DNA from: a virus
Length of the DNA: 53,413 nucleotides
Direction: 5' to 3' (one strand)
Virus record (IMG/VR): IMGVR_UViG_3300023116_000063
Coordinates: 1-53,413 of that record
Under the pieces are notes generated by a model. It worked only from the letters and a program-made list of their open reading frames with translations, had not been told where the DNA came from and did not search any database. The translations under genes were made by a program, and so were the position numbers. Shown in pieces: positions 22,556 through 53,413 of this stretch; within the stretch, counting starts at the first letter, position 1, and every line of letters starts with the position of its first letter.

Positions 22556-24067
22556 TTAAAGTCCAGCATCGTCTAGTCTTGCCTTCAGACTATCAATTTC
22601 TGTTAGTGCTTCTTGTAAAGATTTAACAAGTAGTGGAACAAGCTTGGCTTGGTCGATTGCTTGGTAATCTGGATTACCATCATCATCTACTGCATCCTTT
22701 TCACCAGTAATTGCTTCTGGAACAATATCTTGAACCTCGTGTGCAAGGAAGCCATCGACTGTTGTATCTGCGTCAGCGATGAAGTTAAATCTAGCAGGTT
22801 TCAGTTGCTTTAATCTTGTTGAGGCATCAAAGTCGTATTCTACATTTTCTTTTAGGCGGTAGTCAGATGAGGTGTTGTAAGATACGGATGAGGTATTACC
22901 AGTAATATTTCCAACTTTATTTCCAGCACCTCTATAAAATTGAACTATTTCTCCATTTGCATTCATTCTGTTTAATTGTAAAGATGGATCATTGTTTCTT
23001 TCTATTCTAATTAACCCAGCTGCACCATTGACAGAAATACCAACGCTGTCATTAAAACTATCACTAGTTTTATTAAGACAAAGATGACCACCAGTAGTAA
23101 GACGCATTTTTTCGTCAGCAGGACTAAGAACACTACCATCTGCTGCATTTCTAGTAGCAAATATAAGTTCCAGACCTGATGCATTATTAGTTGATATTGC
23201 ACCAATCCCCGCTCTTCCCCTCTGTACAGCACTACTACTTGGATACCCTGTCCAAGAAATCCACGGCGCATATTGGTTTGATGACAATGAAGCACTAGGT
23301 ATCATAAGAATACCTTCATTTGTTGTCGATGATCCAGAAGTTATTGTACTATCACTTATAACCGATAGTTTTGCACCGGCGTCTGTTTGGACACCACCAA
23401 TATTAACACGGCCCGAGCTGTCTATACGCATGGCTTCTGAGTTGCTAGTGCCAAAGTGTAAGTCACCTGTTCGTGTCCACAAGTCTATGCCTGCACCTGT
23501 CCATTGATACATCGCTGACCTATGTGCAGATTGAATAGCAGGAGAACTGCCAAAAGAGTACAGGTCTATACGACTTCCAGTACCCTCATTGTTTTGTACT
23601 TGTGCGCTAATAACATTGGTGCTTGAACCAGAAACGTGAAGATTAGCATTTGGCGAACTAGTGCCGATGCCAACATCACCATCATTGGCCACACGAATTT
23701 TTTCAGAACCAGCAACCATAAAGGCAAGTTGTGTGCTTCCAGCCTCAGTTCCAAAAGTGCCAACACTACTTCCATCTGTTTTAAATGTGAAGTTAGTTGC
23801 AACACCATCTGTAAAAGTAACTAAACTTCCAACACCACCACCATTTAATTCAAGTTTTCTACTGGGCGAAGTTGTTCCTATGCCTACACGATTGTTTGTG
23901 CTGTCGAGGTATAGTGTTCCAGAATCATAGTTTAGGTTATCTGCGAGTTTTGGGCCTGTAACAGCACCATTTTGAATTTCGGCAGTTTCAACTGAACCAG
24001 CTGCCAAATCCTCAGCAGCGATAACATCCACTCCGATACTTCTTGATATGATTTTTCTAATTGCCAT
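22556..24067 (-). CDS. Tail fibre with S74 auto-processing chaperone domain (copy 1)
   Basis: A 503-residue fibre protein. It has a shortened adaptor (IGVDVIAAEDLAAGSVETAE), the LNYDSGTLYLDSTNNRVGIG module, repeated VGIGTSSP-type shaft segments, and a C-terminal peptidase S74 (intramolecular chaperone) domain. Key residues: Ser401-Asp-Tyr-Arg-Leu-Lys406, FLAHEV (441-446) and a terminal coiled coil ESLKAR-like helix. In this family the domain trimerises the fibre and then cuts itself off just before the Ser. It lies between gp15 and gp16, again a non-T4 location for a fibre. Confidence 0.92.
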   Translation of the reverse strand: MAIRKIISRSIGVDVIAAEDLAAGSVETAEIQNGAVTGPKLADNLNYDSGTLYLDSTNNRVGIGTTSPSRKLELNGGGVGSLVTFTDGVATNFTFKTDGSSVGTFGTEAGSTQLAFMVAGSEKIRVANDGDVGIGTSSPNANLHVSGSSTNVISAQVQNNEGTGSRIDLYSFGSSPAIQSAHRSAMYQWTGAGIDLWTRTGDLHFGTSNSEAMRIDSSGRVNIGGVQTDAGAKLSVISDSTITSGSSTTNEGILMIPSASLSSNQYAPWISWTGYPSSSAVQRGRAGIGAISTNNASGLELIFATRNAADGSVLSPADEKMRLTTGGHLCLNKTSDSFNDSVGISVNGAAGLIRIERNNDPSLQLNRMNANGEIVQFYRGAGNKVGNITGNTSSVSYNTSSDYRLKENVEYDFDASTRLKQLKPARFNFIADADTTVDGFLAHEVQDIVPEAITGEKDAVDDDGNPDYQAIDQAKLVPLLVKSLQEALTEIDSLKARLDDAGL

Positions 24068-29700: not shown

Positions 29701-31404
29701 TTAGTTTGATTCTAGAGCAGTGATACGAGCTTCTAATTCTTGAATTGTCTTTACGAGTAGAGGAACAAGCTTGCTTTGGTCGATTCCTTGATAAACAGGG
29801 TTGCCATCATCATCTACTTCATCGTGTGTGCCTGTGATTGCTTCTGGAACAACTGACTGCACCTCATGTGCTAAGAAGCCATCTACTGTTGTATCTGCAT
29901 CTGCTATGAAGTTAAATCTTTTTGGTTGTAGTTGCTTGAGCCTTGTTGTAGCATCTGTCATCTCAACCACGTTATCCTTTAGGCGATAATCTGATGAGGT
30001 GTTATATGATGTTGATGAGCCACTAGTGCTAATAGTACCTACGACACTATTAATATTTTTAAAACATATATGGTGCATTGTAGAGGAACTATCTTTATTT
30101 GTTACAATAGCATAAGCATTAGCATCAGTAGAACTTGCATTAAAATAAGCACAACCAATAGAGCCAACATTTAAATATGGGTTTGTACTTGAATTAAATC
30201 TGTATATTTTAAAAGAGCCTGAAGTATGATGATTTATATCACCATTTGATGTTATACGCATACGTTCTGCTCTAGAGCCACTATCCCTAGACACAAACAC
30301 AAAATCTGATGCATTGTTACTGCTGTTCTGAACTCCACCAATGTACCATTCACCATTAGATTCCGTAGTAAACGACATAATCGAGTTATTTAAAGCACCA
30401 GAGGTGCTATTCTTTAGACCAAGTATATTGTTAAATGCCGCAGACAACGGGTTATAATCCGTATCAGAATCATTTTGAACTTGAACAGGGGTGTTTGGAT
30501 TATCAGTACCAATGCCCACTCTGCCGTTGCTGTCGATACGCATACGTTCAACATCACCAGTACCAAAAGTTAATTCTGGAGCTGCACCGCCGGTAGCACC
30601 AATTCTTGCCTGAGCTTCTGTTGACCTCATTCCAAAAACAATTTGTCCACCAACAGTAATATTAGAATTAGCAGGATTTTCTAAATAAATTGTGGGGCCA
30701 ATACCAACTTGACCATCTGCATCAGTAGCATCATAAGTTGTAGCATCAGATTTTTTTAAGTGTAAGAAACTAGATGGGTTGGTCTCGCCGAGGCCCAATT
30801 TGCCATCGGACAAAATACTCATACGCACACCGCCGCCAGTCAGCAATTCCATTGCATTTGAACTATTTGCTCTAATTGCAAGACTCTCTGCGCCGCCAGT
30901 ATCTTGCATCGCAAAATAAGAGGCGTTAGGCAAAACCAACTTATTTGTCATACTGCTTACGCCAATGCCCACGTTGCCGGCATTGTCGATACGCACCTTT
31001 TCAGCTACTGTTCCATTATTATTAGTTTTAAAAGCAAGGCCGCCGAAGTTATTTCCAATATTGATACCCTCTACAGTACCGTGAATTTCTTCTGCTTTGA
31101 AACGCAAAACAGCAACTCCACCTGTACCTCCCTCAACATCAATATCACCTTTAACATGAAGTTCTTTAGAAGGCGAAGTTGTGCCGATGCCCACTCTATT
31201 ATTTGTACTGTCTAGATAAAGTGTTCCAGAATCATAGTTTAGGTTATTGGCAAGTTTAGCACCAGTGACAGCACCATCAGTGAGTTCAGATACAGTTACA
31301 GAGTTCGCAGCAAGATCGTCAGCAACAATTACATCTACACCAATCTTGGCAGATGTGATAGCGTCATCTTGAATACCGTCTGTTTTAATTCTTGAAATTG
31401 GCAT
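29701..31404 (-). CDS. Tail fibre with S74 auto-processing chaperone domain (copy 2)
   Basis: A 567-residue fibre. N-terminal adaptor IQDDAITSAKIGVDVIVADD, the shared LNYDSGTLYLDSTNNRVGIG module, several VGIG...NP/SP shaft repeats, and a C-terminal S74 domain with Ser471-Asp-Tyr-Arg-Leu-Lys476 and FLAHEV, ending in the coiled coil ELEARITALESN. The S74 domain is nearly the same as in the copy at 22556, while the shafts differ, so tips or shafts have been exchanged between conserved ends. Confidence 0.92.
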   Translation of the reverse strand: MPISRIKTDGIQDDAITSAKIGVDVIVADDLAANSVTVSELTDGAVTGAKLANNLNYDSGTLYLDSTNNRVGIGTTSPSKELHVKGDIDVEGGTGGVAVLRFKAEEIHGTVEGINIGNNFGGLAFKTNNNGTVAEKVRIDNAGNVGIGVSSMTNKLVLPNASYFAMQDTGGAESLAIRANSSNAMELLTGGGVRMSILSDGKLGLGETNPSSFLHLKKSDATTYDATDADGQVGIGPTIYLENPANSNITVGGQIVFGMRSTEAQARIGATGGAAPELTFGTGDVERMRIDSNGRVGIGTDNPNTPVQVQNDSDTDYNPLSAAFNNILGLKNSTSGALNNSIMSFTTESNGEWYIGGVQNSSNNASDFVFVSRDSGSRAERMRITSNGDINHHTSGSFKIYRFNSSTNPYLNVGSIGCAYFNASSTDANAYAIVTNKDSSSTMHHICFKNINSVVGTISTSGSSTSYNTSSDYRLKDNVVEMTDATTRLKQLQPKRFNFIADADTTVDGFLAHEVQSVVPEAITGTHDEVDDDGNPVYQGIDQSKLVPLLVKTIQELEARITALESN

Positions 31405-31426: not shown

Positions 31427-31434
31427 TATTTATT
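31427..31434 (-). promoter_or_regulatory. Late promoter AATAAATA for S74 fibre 2
   Basis: NATAAATA on the minus strand; its TAA is the stop codon (31430-31432) of the 65-residue gene. 23 bases before the ATG at 31404. Confidence 0.75.
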
Positions 31435-31627
31435 CTGCATCTGGTAATGGGTCTGCGTCTGCAATTGTTAAGTCACCAGATTCTACTTGTCTGAGTATTT
31501 CTGCGTAGTGTCTGTTAGCAGGGTCTAGTGGTACAGACATTGGGATATCATCTATTATTGCTAAAATACCAGAATTAACTCCTTCAAACTGTAAATACTT
31601 AGCTGATAAAATGTTTAAATTTTCCAT
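31430..31627 (-). CDS. Small protein paired with QRGTS-type fibre (copy 1)
   Basis: A 65-residue acidic protein: MENLNILSAKYLQFEG, then AIIDDIPMSVPLDP and EILRQVESGDLTIADADP. It is related to the 56-residue product of 34263-34433 (NI.SA.Y, (Q/R)VE.G.LTIA.AD). Both follow immediately after fibres carrying the ING.F...QRGTS motif, with the small gene's ribosome site inside the fibre end (GGAGTTATAAATG). Function unknown; a fibre-specific assembly factor is inferred. Confidence 0.75.
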   Translation of the reverse strand: MENLNILSAKYLQFEGVNSGILAIIDDIPMSVPLDPANRHYAEILRQVESGDLTIADADPLPDAE

Positions 31628-32785
31628 TTATAACTCCGAATCTGCTGTCCACCCAGCAATATGAGACTTATCTGTTGTAAATCCACTAGCTTTGTACGCC
31701 AAAAAAATACCTTGCTTAGATGAACTATTAACTGTAACACCTGTTATATCAGGGCTACCAATCTGATGTACACCTCCTGCCGTTCCGGCATTATTATAAA
31801 GAACACAAGTAGGATTAGTTCTCATTTCTACTGGAAACCTGTTTCCACCCCATGCTTCACTAGCGTTGTAAGAATAAAACCACATTGGACTAGATGTAGC
31901 ATTAGCAATAGACGTACTTTGCTGATAATACCTCTTACAAAGATGGAGTTCAGCAGCATATGTGCTATGCTCGAATGTGGTAGCCTCAGTGCCTTCTTCA
32001 AGTTGTAATTGTGCAAATTGAATTTTATCAGCGGTGTTATGACAATTACCAAATGCCCAATATATCTGCAATCCTTTGTCAAAGTTTGTCAAAGAAGTAG
32101 CAGAAGTTCTTGTAACCGTAAAATAATACCATGTATCTACTGAAGTAAGTGTGAGCGTTCCATTGTTAGCAGCTGTTCCATCACCAGAAATTGTTGCAGA
32201 AGTAAACGCAGCACCATGTGTAGTGTATCCAGCAAAGTTATCTGTTGCAGTAGGACAAATGATGTTAGTTGAAATTGCTTGGTTTACACTGCCACTTCTT
32301 TTAATATAACCACTGATAGTAAATGAATTTTTTGCTCTAATACCAGCAAGAGATGAGGACTCTACTCTTTGTCCAAAGTAACCAGCACCATTTCCACTGT
32401 TTGCACTTGTTGGGCCTCTTACCTCTGCAAATTTATTGTTAGCACCGCTGGCAGTTGGGCCTCCATCAAATACATGATGTGTAGCACCAGTAGGAGTTTG
32501 ATCAAAATGCCCGAACCACCTGTCTGGAGAAAGATATTGCCAAATACCACCAGTATACGTTACTGATGTGCCTCTTTGAGCTATTCTGAAATTGCCATTG
32601 ATAAAGACATTTCTTCTACCAGTTTCAACACCAAGTTTACTTCCAGTAACAGCATCATCAGCAATTTTTGCAGAAGAAACAGAACCGTCAGAAATCTTTG
32701 CCTGTGTAACAGAACCATCAGCAATGTCAGTGTTTACAACTGTATTGTCTGGTATTGCTCTTGAATTTAGTTTAATGAGTGCCAT
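31628..32785 (-). CDS. Tail fibre/adhesin with QRGTS-type carbohydrate-binding-like domain (copy 1)
   Basis: A 385-residue adhesin. Residues 1-50 are a repeat adaptor (VNTDIADGSVTQAKISDGSV), followed by NVFINGNFRIAQRGTSVTYT, a motif opening a beta-sandwich domain common in phage tail proteins, and a jelly-roll-like body (FTISGYIKRSGSVNQA, VDTWYYFTVTR, QLQLEEGTEATTFEH). It ends ADSEL and overlaps no other gene, but the small partner gene begins right at its stop. 29 bases around its start are repeated exactly at 51652-51680. Confidence 0.85.
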   Translation of the reverse strand: MALIKLNSRAIPDNTVVNTDIADGSVTQAKISDGSVSSAKIADDAVTGSKLGVETGRRNVFINGNFRIAQRGTSVTYTGGIWQYLSPDRWFGHFDQTPTGATHHVFDGGPTASGANNKFAEVRGPTSANSGNGAGYFGQRVESSSLAGIRAKNSFTISGYIKRSGSVNQAISTNIICPTATDNFAGYTTHGAAFTSATISGDGTAANNGTLTLTSVDTWYYFTVTRTSATSLTNFDKGLQIYWAFGNCHNTADKIQFAQLQLEEGTEATTFEHSTYAAELHLCKRYYQQSTSIANATSSPMWFYSYNASEAWGGNRFPVEMRTNPTCVLYNNAGTAGGVHQIGSPDITGVTVNSSSKQGIFLAYKASGFTTDKSHIAGWTADSEL

Positions 32786-32806: not shown

Positions 32807-32814
32807 TATTTATT
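32807..32814 (-). promoter_or_regulatory. Late promoter AATAAATA for the QRGTS fibre 1 cassette
   Basis: NATAAATA on the minus strand; its TAA is the stop (32810-32812) of the 83-residue gene. 22 bases before the ATG at 32785. Confidence 0.75.
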
Positions 32815-33061
32815 CTGCCGCAATGAGCTCATCATACTTTGCAACTGCGTCTGCATATGTTACAGTAAATGCAGAAACATCAGATGAAGTGATTGCACAA
32901 TCGTTATCATCCGTTCCAGTGATTTCCATGTAACACGCATTGTATTCTTCTTCTGTAAGTCTATCATTGTGAGGCATACTCATCATAAACATTCCATCTG
33001 AATGCAGTGCTTGTACAGCAGTTAAAAAAGTAATTTCTGGGGTTCTTGTTGGTAATGACAT
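32810..33061 (-). CDS. Small cassette-terminal protein
   Basis: An 83-residue protein of unknown family: ITFLTAVQALHSDGMFMMSM, PHNDRLTEEEYNACYMEITG, and an acidic helical end DAVAKYDELIAAE. It directly follows the 388-residue fibre and ends inside the next late promoter, like other small proteins in this island. No paralogue found here. Confidence 0.7.
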   Translation of the reverse strand: MSLPTRTPEITFLTAVQALHSDGMFMMSMPHNDRLTEEEYNACYMEITGTDDNDCAITSSDVSAFTVTYADAVAKYDELIAAE

Positions 33062-50128: not shown

Positions 50129-51595
50129 TTAGAATTCCACTACGATTTTAATATCTTCTGTTTGGTCAGATGCACGAGAAATCGGCCGTCTGTTTTCGAC
50201 ATAAAGAATATGTCCACTATCTGGTTCAAGTTCTGGATTAGCATATCCAGTTGTAAAAGTCAAAACAGTACCACCAGTTAGTGTTACGTTTTCAGATGCA
50301 GTAGATGATGGAATAGCTGCAGCAAGTGATGTTGCACCTGTCACAGTATTTGCACCAGAGAATGCTACATAATTACCAGCGGCATTAATGCCAAAGTCTG
50401 CAAATCTTTCTTGTACATAATACAAAATGTTATTTGTTGCATCCCATTCTACAACTCTACCAACTGCACCAGTGCTTGATTGTGTAATCTTTTCATCAAT
50501 GGTATAGTCTGTTGAAGGAGCGGCAGCCATTTTAATTGCATATGATTGTCTACGAGTTGATGCAGAAGAAACAGTTGTCGTACCAAAGTTAAATGGATCT
50601 TTTACAATACCAACTTCTCTAAAGTCGTTTGCGACTGTTACATCGTCACCCTCGGCCTGTTCAAGTTTAGTATTCATCATCACATAATGAGCACCAAGTT
50701 CTTCAACTGCATTGAAACCATGTCCACCTCTAGGAGAAATGATTGGAGTGACAGAACCACCAGTACCAGCACCTATAGAAGATGAAAGTGTTAATGCGTT
50801 ATCAGAATATGTGTCTGTCAAATCTACAGTAGCAAATGTATATCCTGTTCCAGCAGCAAATACGTTTGTTCCACTAGAACCCTGTGGTTGAATTGCACCA
50901 CCACTTACTACAATCTCAACAATACCACTAGAACCATCACCATCAATTGCAGTGTAATAAGTTCCATCAGTATAACCAGAACCAGCAGTAATACGAACAG
51001 TATCAATTGAACCATTCGCTGCGGCCGCAGATATAGTAGAATCTGTTACAACTGGAATAAAGTCTGAAGTTAAAAACTTATCAATATTCGATACACTCAA
51101 TGTGTACATATATTGTAGAGTGTAACCACCAAGTTCAAATGGAATTGCTGATGTTGTTGTTGGTTCTACACCACTATATGCAGTTCCACCATTATTGTCA
51201 AGTACTTTATAAACTTTATATTCACTAGTCATAAAGTAAAATGTAGAATCCCATAGGTTTGTTGCACCAGATGATGTTGGATTTGATACAGAAATATCAT
51301 GTTCATACATATCATAGGTTGTACTGTTTGTCCAATTTCTACGAGGAGCACAGTACACAACATCAGAAGATGAGATCAATTTGGCAGCGAGCATTGAATC
51401 CCATTTGTGTTGTTCCAATACAACGTCATCGTTTGGAGTTGGAGGGGAGTTGTCATCGCCACCAGAAGTACTCACGCTGAAAGGTGAACTCTTTCCGATA
51501 AACAAATAATATGTAGATGCAGAAGCTTCAGAGAATGACTCAAAAAATTGTTCTGCATTATGTTGTCTGAATTTTTCAGTAATAATTGCTGCCAT
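50129..51595 (-). CDS. gp8: gp8 baseplate wedge protein (enlarged)
   Basis: A 488-residue homologue of T4 gp8 (334 residues). N-terminus ITEKFRQHNAEQFFESFSEA and FIGKSSPFSV, the PRRNW segment (CAPRRNWTNSTTYDMYEHDI), and the end ILYVENRRPISRASDQTEDI correspond to T4 gp8 (MIYMENRPPI...DQTEEI). The extra length holds Gly-rich beta repeats (AGSGYTDGTYYTAIDGDGSS) and an EKITQSSTGAVGRVVEW module like those in the giant protein. It begins three bases before the giant gene in the same transcription unit. Confidence 0.9.
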   Translation of the reverse strand: MAAIITEKFRQHNAEQFFESFSEASASTYYLFIGKSSPFSVSTSGGDDNSPPTPNDDVVLEQHKWDSMLAAKLISSSDVVYCAPRRNWTNSTTYDMYEHDISVSNPTSSGATNLWDSTFYFMTSEYKVYKVLDNNGGTAYSGVEPTTTSAIPFELGGYTLQYMYTLSVSNIDKFLTSDFIPVVTDSTISAAAANGSIDTVRITAGSGYTDGTYYTAIDGDGSSGIVEIVVSGGAIQPQGSSGTNVFAAGTGYTFATVDLTDTYSDNALTLSSSIGAGTGGSVTPIISPRGGHGFNAVEELGAHYVMMNTKLEQAEGDDVTVANDFREVGIVKDPFNFGTTTVSSASTRRQSYAIKMAAAPSTDYTIDEKITQSSTGAVGRVVEWDATNNILYYVQERFADFGINAAGNYVAFSGANTVTGATSLAAAIPSSTASENVTLTGGTVLTFTTGYANPELEPDSGHILYVENRRPISRASDQTEDIKIVVEF

Positions 51596-51613: not shown

Positions 51614-51621
51614 TATTTATG
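51614..51621 (-). promoter_or_regulatory. Late promoter CATAAATA for gp8 and the giant gene
   Basis: NATAAATA on the minus strand; its TAA is the stop of the fibre remnant (51617-51619). 19 bases before the gp8 ATG. Confidence 0.7.
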
Positions 51622-51680
51622 CGTTCTCTAGAGCCTCTAGGCGTGCTTCAAGAGTGCCATTCTGTTCTTTTCCTATAATC
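51617..51680 (-). pseudogene. Scar of a deleted tail fibre gene
   Basis: Bases 51652-51680 are identical to 32777-32805, the leader, ATG and first codons (MAL) of the 31628 fibre gene. Straight after, in another frame, bases 51617-51658 encode GTLEARLEALENA and a stop, which matches the coiled-coil end of S74 fibres (ELEARITALESN at 29701). So a start and an end of fibre genes are fused with the middle missing. From the ATG only seven codons are readable. Confidence 0.75.
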
Positions 51681-51681
51681 C

Positions 51682-52731
51682 TTATACTGAGCGGTACATC
51701 ACTGAGCCACGAATTACAGCATTAGTATTAAGCTCACTTGCAACAATACCATTTTCACCCAAGTTATCGCCAACTTCTTTAAGTTCAATTTGGTTTGTTG
51801 ATACAGCTGGAATTTGGTATGCCATAGTAGTTCCAGAACCTAAATTAACATTAAAGTAGTGTCCGATATGTCCACCAGAATACAAACTATTATCAACATT
51901 TTTAGTATTGAATGGAACATTATCCAAGAAAACTGTGTTTGTAAGAGTGCCTGTTCTATTACTAAGTGTAATGTTGAATTGAAGATAAACTAAGTTACCA
52001 ATTTTAATATAACTACCAAGTTGAACACTGTAACTAAATGTAGCACCATTTGAATATAGTGTGGGAGTGTATGTGCCTTCTTCATAATCGTCAAGGGCGT
52101 TAGCTGCAGCAGTGTCACCGTTGAAAGTGATACCACCACCACTCAATATTCTCAACTTTTCTGTTTCACCAGTTCCATCAGATTGTCCACCAGTAAAAAA
52201 TTTTATGACATTACCACTACCACTATGAAATCCTCTAGAATGAATACTAAAAGAGTTGTCTTGAGATGCGCCAGAGGTTTGAATTATTGAACTATGTCCA
52301 AATGATACACTTCTAGTTGAATCATAGGAAACTTTTGCTTGAGGAAGTTGAGATGTGCTTTGAACATGAAAAGCCGTATCTGGGGATGATAGCCCCACCC
52401 CAACTCTATCATTTCCACCATCAACAAATAGCATATTAGCATTGCCATTTGACTCAACTCTGAAATCTACGTCAGCGCTATCTTCATTGAATACTGCACC
52501 ACCGTTTGCTTTAAACTCACCAGTTGCAGTCATGGACGAGCCACTAGAGAGTGTTCCTGTTACTGCAATATTCGTATCTAGTTTTGCAGAAGTGACAGCA
52601 CCATCCGTAATTTCTGATACAGTAATAGAGTTCGCCGCCAAATCCTCGGCGGCAATAACGTCAACACCAATCTTTGCAGAGGTGATAGCGTCATCTTGAA
52701 TGCCGACTGTTTTAATTCTATCTAGTGCCAT
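51682..52731 (-). CDS. Tail fibre/adhesin with ALDDYEEGT tip
   Basis: A 349-residue fibre. Adaptor IQDDAITSAKIGVDVIAAED, then AKLDTNIAVTGTLSS, a VGVGLSSPDTAFHVQ shaft repeat and a tip beginning AANALDDYEEGTYTPTLYSN. The adaptor is nearly the same as in the S74 fibre at 29701 and the tip start the same as in the product at 37839. It is thus a mosaic of modules used elsewhere in this window. Confidence 0.84.
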   Translation of the reverse strand: MALDRIKTVGIQDDAITSAKIGVDVIAAEDLAANSITVSEITDGAVTSAKLDTNIAVTGTLSSGSSMTATGEFKANGGAVFNEDSADVDFRVESNGNANMLFVDGGNDRVGVGLSSPDTAFHVQSTSQLPQAKVSYDSTRSVSFGHSSIIQTSGASQDNSFSIHSRGFHSGSGNVIKFFTGGQSDGTGETEKLRILSGGGITFNGDTAAANALDDYEEGTYTPTLYSNGATFSYSVQLGSYIKIGNLVYLQFNITLSNRTGTLTNTVFLDNVPFNTKNVDNSLYSGGHIGHYFNVNLGSGTTMAYQIPAVSTNQIELKEVGDNLGENGIVASELNTNAVIRGSVMYRSV

Positions 52732-52747
52732 AATTCTCTATCCTATC

Positions 52748-53413
52748 TTATGCAGACGTAATTGTTTCCCATGCACTACCAGTATAAACCTGTAGTTTAT
52801 TTGTTGCAGTCAAGTATGCAACCATACCAGCGGCAGGAGATGTAATTGCAGCATCTCTTGCACTTGTATCTGCATACACGGCTGCTTGGAAATGTGTGCT
52901 AGAACTTAGGGTTGTAAATGAACCAGCAGCAGGAGTATTGCCACCAACGATACCATCAACATCACCTGTTACGTTACCAGTGATATTACCAGTGAATGTT
53001 CCGGCAATTGCACCTGTACCAGTAATTGTGGGAGATGTAAGTGTCTTATTAGTTAATGTTTGTGTTGCAGTATCAGAAACCAAAGTTGCATCAGCATTTC
53101 CAAGTGTGTCACCGCCTGGTAATGTTAATGTATTTGTTGCATTTTCTGAATGTGGTTGTGATGCAACAATTTGTCCATGTGTGTTGACATGACAGTTCAA
53201 TTGAAGTTGTCCAACGACAGATGCACCATCACCTTGAACTTCTAGAATGTTTGTAGCAGGAGCAACAACAATATTACCAGAGGCTGAAGTTGCAGTACCA
53301 CCAAGAACTGGACTAGTCAAAGTTTTGTTTGTAAGTGTAATAGTATTTGCAGCAAGAGCAATATCAGCTGTGTCACTCAAGTCTGTACTTGCGATTGTGA
53401 TATTTGCACTACC
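52748..53413 (-). CDS. Tail fibre-like protein (partial, 5' end outside window)
   Basis: The last 221 residues of a larger protein; the reading frame runs open to the right edge with no ATG start, so the gene begins beyond the window. It has TLTNKTLTSPVL and QTLTNKTLTSPTI repeats and a GTFTGNITGNVTGDVDG run, followed by GSFTTLSSSTHFQ and VAYLTATNKLQVYTGSAWE, all typical of phage tail fibre or baseplate-attached proteins. No tip domain is seen. Confidence 0.78.
   Translation of the reverse strand, partial: GSANITIASTDLSDTADIALAANTITLTNKTLTSPVLGGTATSASGNIVVAPATNILEVQGDGASVVGQLQLNCHVNTHGQIVASQPHSENATNTLTLPGGDTLGNADATLVSDTATQTLTNKTLTSPTITGTGAIAGTFTGNITGNVTGDVDGIVGGNTPAAGSFTTLSSSTHFQAAVYADTSARDAAITSPAAGMVAYLTATNKLQVYTGSAWETITSA

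Follow-up and report, generated by a model that had tools for sequence, protein, structure and literature searches.

A short scar before gp8 in a T4-like marine myophage as the probable trace of a tail-fibre gene replacement

Background

Between a fibre gene and the baseplate wedge gene gp8 of a marine virus lie 64 bases in which the front of one fibre gene is joined to the end of another, which raises the question of what kind of event left them there. That marine T4-like phages swap fibres is usually deduced from mosaic comparisons, and a scar of this kind is a fossil of change in parts thought to recognise hosts. The DNA analysed here (the window) is 53,413 bases long and comprises positions 1 to 53,413 of the IMG/VR record IMGVR_UViG_3300023116_000063. 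It belongs to a T4-like marine myophage; on gp8, the named phages closest to it are the Methylophilales phage Melnitz (75% amino acid identity) and then the Pelagibacter phages Mosig and HTVC008M.

The genes treated here all lie on the minus strand; in the order of transcription they are fibre A (52748..53413), which is cut by the end of the window and is a fixed left flank with a variable tip; the 51682 fibre gene (51682..52731, 349 aa); the scar (51680-51617); gp8 (50129..51595, PF09215 and phrog_438), which is the fixed right flank; and a gene for a 2200-aa protein that takes the position of VrlC. A profile search with the 51682 protein gave no Pfam match, the S74 domain included. The original prediction read the scar as a fibre cassette of which the inside had been lost and both borders left behind. 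Relatives were collected by a gp8 search of IMG/VR, which gave 80; 44 relatives were examined for the TAAATA motif described below.

Results and discussion

The left piece of the scar (51652..51680) is the front of a 31628-type fibre gene, its leader and start. As had been predicted, the minus strand from 51680 to 51652 (GATTATAGGAAAAGAACAGAATGGCACTC) is an exact 29-base copy of positions 32805-32777, at the front of the window's own 31628 fibre (31628..32785), and the 31628-type genes in L085-L088 are preceded by a leader identical to that in the scar. This match is far beyond chance: in 200 dinucleotide shuffles of the scar region the shared word never exceeded 16 bases (mean 11.7), and in 300 random 111-base pieces of the window the longest repeat had a median of 13 and a 95th percentile of 18. 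Five of the 300 pieces reached at least 29, which shows that a genome this rich in fibres does contain long repeats. A fuzzy search for the leader, which allowed up to 5 substitutions, returned exact copies only, and little weight is given to it because BLAST showed gapped near-copies in L216 and L217.

The right piece (51617..51656) holds the last 12 sense codons of an S74 fibre and its stop. The codons after the join, from 51655 to 51617, are ACT CTT GAA GCA CGC CTA GAG GCT CTA GAG AAC GCA TAA, which read TLEARLEALENA-stop; the S74 end had been given as GTLEARLEALENA-stop, of which the leading G comes from the start-codon context and not from the S74 gene, while the remainder stands. The join is out of frame, as was also predicted, and the ATG at 51660 opens a 7-codon frame, MALLKHA-stop (51637..51660), which was made by the join, lies outside the S74 frame and is probably a by-product. 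The S74 domain itself is absent, with only the last 12 codons left; the scar is non-coding and is not a functional Peptidase_S74 fibre.

The S74 stop codon (51617-51619) lies within the late-promoter motif of gp8, CATAAATA (51614..51621), which matches the cyanomyovirus late-promoter motif NATAAATA (PMC2984593). TAAATA was found at most 60 bases upstream of gp8 in all 44 relatives examined, and in 15 of the 44 its TAA ends an open frame that is 40 codons or longer. The placement of the stop inside a late promoter was therefore correctly predicted for the scar, but the added claim that intact cassettes end in the same way applies to that minority only. Since the right join lies upstream of this stop, the gp8 promoter was preserved, and the presence of TAAATA in every relative suggests that joins destroying it may have been selected against.

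The 64-bp stretch might instead be a conserved functional element, such as a leader peptide, an RNA structure or a regulatory site, and it does place a ribosome-binding-like stretch and a 7-codon open reading frame before gp8. This is extremely improbable, because the stretch is confined to this lineage, relatives being unrelated there save for the gp8 leader and promoter, and because searches of the scar gave no RNA structure (z = +0.98), no Rfam family and no terminator, so that a functional RNA or terminator was rejected.

A second contig, L004, from another record, carries the same scar (0/65 differences) and the same 51682 gene (0/1050 differences). An assembly artefact was rejected on these grounds, and the two contigs were counted as one scar event. 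In fibre A, about 300 bases near the tip (window ~53014-53313) are 60-66% identical between the window and L004, with flanks at 99-100%. The tip thus differs although neither the 51682 gene nor the scar does, so the two scar-bearing phages are separated by a second recent exchange, in fibre A of the same operon.

The sister contig L005, a single contig of 7951 bp, has a gp8 that is 99% identical in protein, and it lacks the 51682 fibre. Directly before gp8 it carries an intact 476-aa S74 fibre (31.3 bits against PF13884, cut-off 22), which ends in KIDTLETRLEALENA and stops 21 bases short of the gp8 start codon. Its flanks are 98.6% (left) and 97.8% (right) identical in DNA to those of L004, while the region between fibre A and gp8 differs. 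The last 40 bases of the L005 S74 gene match the right half of the scar (43/44 nt including four flanking bases, E 5e-16); the original prediction had named such a gene in a close relative, intact, before gp8 and with an end matching the scar, as the thing to look for, and the outcome of this check is thus positive. S74-type fibres also lie directly before gp8 in five more distant relatives, clearly in L066 and L067 and in more divergent form in L064, L065 and L068. These comparisons support the view that the right piece of the scar is what remains of a Peptidase_S74 (PF13884) fibre that once stood before gp8 and was lost. The remnant also matches the S74 fibre end of L090 (1-477), where a fibre with the same KIDTLETRLEALENA end lies elsewhere, beside genes matching the window's fibre array and the region that follows it; this type of S74 end is therefore common to more than one locus. 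Two intact S74 fibres with PF13884 are present in the window itself (22556-24067 and 29701-31404), and their ends differ from that in the scar.

The joins were located by ungapped alignment of the window with L005. Agreement extends past the end of fibre A and across the leader into the next gene, of which the first 17 bases (ATGGCACTAGATAGAAT) still correspond, and is lost thereafter; this retained slot border (52715..52763) has one difference from L005, and the 183 bp around it are 94.5% identical. The left join, AGAAT (52715..52719), is a 5-bp identity between the start of the slot gene (the L005 S74 gene) and an array-type N-terminus (29701), and from AGAAT on, the start of the 51682 gene resembles that of the window's own array gene 29701 (AGAATTAAAACAG...). 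The right join, CACTC (51652..51656), consists of five bases that the 31628-type start (GGCACTC) and the S74 tail (GACACTC) have in common; to the right of it the window and L005 are identical save for single substitutions, and to the left of it they are unrelated. Between AGAAT and CACTC the window has no similarity to L005. At this base composition an identity of at least 5 bp at a random join has a probability of about 0.006, the value for the left join being based on 29701, a homologue standing in for the donor.

Since L005 and the window agree to the left of AGAAT and to the right of CACTC, the S74 gene and the 51682 gene are, to judge from this alignment, alternatives in one slot: the 51682 gene still begins with the front of the S74 gene, whose back is left as the scar. 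The earlier reading was thus right that an S74 fibre was lost before gp8, as L005 attests, but the data do not support an origin of both scar borders from one cassette excised beside the 51682 fibre, because the L005 S74 gene occupies the 51682 slot and its left border survives in the 51682 gene.

The best explanation, to which we assign a probability of roughly 0.7, is that the inside of the S74 gene was replaced by a foreign block through short-homology recombination. The ancestral slot between fibre A and gp8 would have held an S74 tail-fibre gene, as that of L005 still does, and the incoming block would have consisted of most of the 51682 gene together with the leader of a 31628-type gene and its first 9 bases, so that the 29-bp piece would be the front of a third fibre gene. 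The left join, AGAAT, falls inside the first six codons of the replaced gene, so that the new fibre would now be driven by that gene's leader and start codons, and with the right join at CACTC, 12 codons before the old stop, the 64-bp non-coding scar would be left and the gp8 late promoter kept. What is seen directly is two states in sister genomes, with common flanks and unrelated insides, sharp boundaries, a 5-bp identity at each join and a gene family for each piece; a single event, the direction from S74 to 51682 and a donor with the order [51682-type fibre][31628-type fibre] are probable deductions from this. A slot gene need not be of the S74 type to have a MALDRI-like start (as in L006), and the left join by itself is therefore no proof that the replaced gene was. 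The joining itself may have occurred, for example, by template switching in recombination-dependent replication. Replication in T4-type phages does proceed through recombination. These phages are also thought to import DNA by illegitimate exchange (PMC2993671), and for these two reasons no special enzyme need be assumed. In the slots inspected, only fibre and baseplate-type genes were seen.

The families of genes on which the two pieces are found bear on an alternative closer to the original prediction, in which the order was once fibre A, the 51682 fibre, a separate S74 gene starting GATTATAGGAAAAGAACAGAATGGCACT under a 31628-type leader, and gp8, and this S74 gene suffered an internal deletion from ATGGCACT near its start to GACACT near its end. 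A deletion at CACT/CACTC would give the observed join as well, many fibre genes have a start that reads ATGGCACT, and S74 fibres do occur directly before gp8. The left piece of the scar was found only on non-S74 genes and the right piece only on S74 genes. Every gene found behind the 31628-type leader was of the MALIKLNSRAIP type and lacked an S74 domain, save for an unrelated large-protein family (L214, L215, L218, L220-L223) that has only its AGGAAAAGAACANAATGGCA core; no S74 gene with a 31628-type front was found. Against the deletion, no complete gene with the MALIKLNSRAIP start had an S74 domain, and in the only sister that has an S74 gene, this gene fills the 51682 slot and begins with the very leader and start that the 51682 gene has. 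Such a deletion also requires an insertion beforehand, while replacement fits in one step, so that replacement is the simplest reading and the loss of a separate cassette, which needs extra steps and an unseen type of S74 gene, is unlikely.

The source of the 29-base piece admits a further variant of replacement. The phage's own 31628 locus could have supplied, as a separate short copy, the 24 bases that precede the right join, in which case the 51682 fibre would have replaced the S74 gene and template switching would have filled in the 31628 start between them. The scar and the window's own 31628 gene have identical leaders, with a resemblance at the left edge too, where ATAAG stands before ATTATAGG at both places. 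Such a three-part join needs two switches close together, and identical leaders are present in other contigs, so the source need not be the window genome; we consider it quite improbable. For the replacement by a single block, a donor of the expected order is plausible, since in L219 a 31628-type start directly follows a complete fibre gene. Such a start follows a 91-aa gene in L216 and an 83-aa gene in L085, and these different predecessors indicate that the front end moves between neighbours. Searches of viral and genome contigs gave no donor in which a 51682-type end is followed by a 31628-type start, an absence that is weak evidence, and no intermediate was found either; the leader pattern had no match in GTDB genomes, and for the 51682 C-terminus no close match, only weak relatives, was found outside the lineage.

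The event is of a known kind, phage fibre mosaicism by short-homology recombination, in an unusually well resolved instance. Fibre-gene replacement has been described for T4-related phages, with illegitimate exchange between marginally similar sequences named as a route (PMC2993671); here, in contrast, both joins of one exchange are visible at the level of bases, together with a remnant of the lost gene. In related marine myophages, the host recognition cluster of pelagimyophages likewise has variable fibre genes in the structural region, but that island lies between VrlC and gp14, whereas the slot in the window is a small cassette position upstream of gp8, on the other side (PMC7029224). Metaviromic islands are similar in that host-recognition genes, including tail fibres, vary between nearly identical marine phages, but they were defined by read recruitment, without display of the joins that can be seen here (PMC3909814). 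The lost gene belonged to the Peptidase_S74 fibres with an intramolecular chaperone (PF13884), having an S74-type coiled-coil end, of which the scar keeps 12 codons and no domain. With two sister genomes and the scar, one exchange has both of its joins placed within five bases, which makes it testable whether swaps need long homology and what limits are set by the borders of fibre genes and by late promoters.

A broader proposal is that such borders, namely the leader with its ATGGCA front and the stop in the late promoter, are recurring exchange points, and that fibres move between the array and the slot before gp8 as a regular route of changing host recognition, with selection sparing the gp8 promoter; at present this appears rather unlikely. 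Similar scars were sought in the long gaps before gp8 in L022, L059, L063, L075, L076 and L082, and no fibre-end match was found among the loci compared. Within 100 bases upstream of gp8 (start 3144), L022 has a small open reading frame, MTGDKDFEPGDTPFDTPPTDTE, between the slot fibre and gp8, perhaps a remnant, perhaps a short accessory gene. A spacer of about 60 bases before gp8 (97% identical) is common to L059, L063 and L069, the slot contexts of which are otherwise different. Many array fibre genes are separated by short genes (56-91 aa), as at 31430-31627 and 32810-33061 in the window and in L085, L216 and L219, and these may encode fibre chaperones or attachment proteins.
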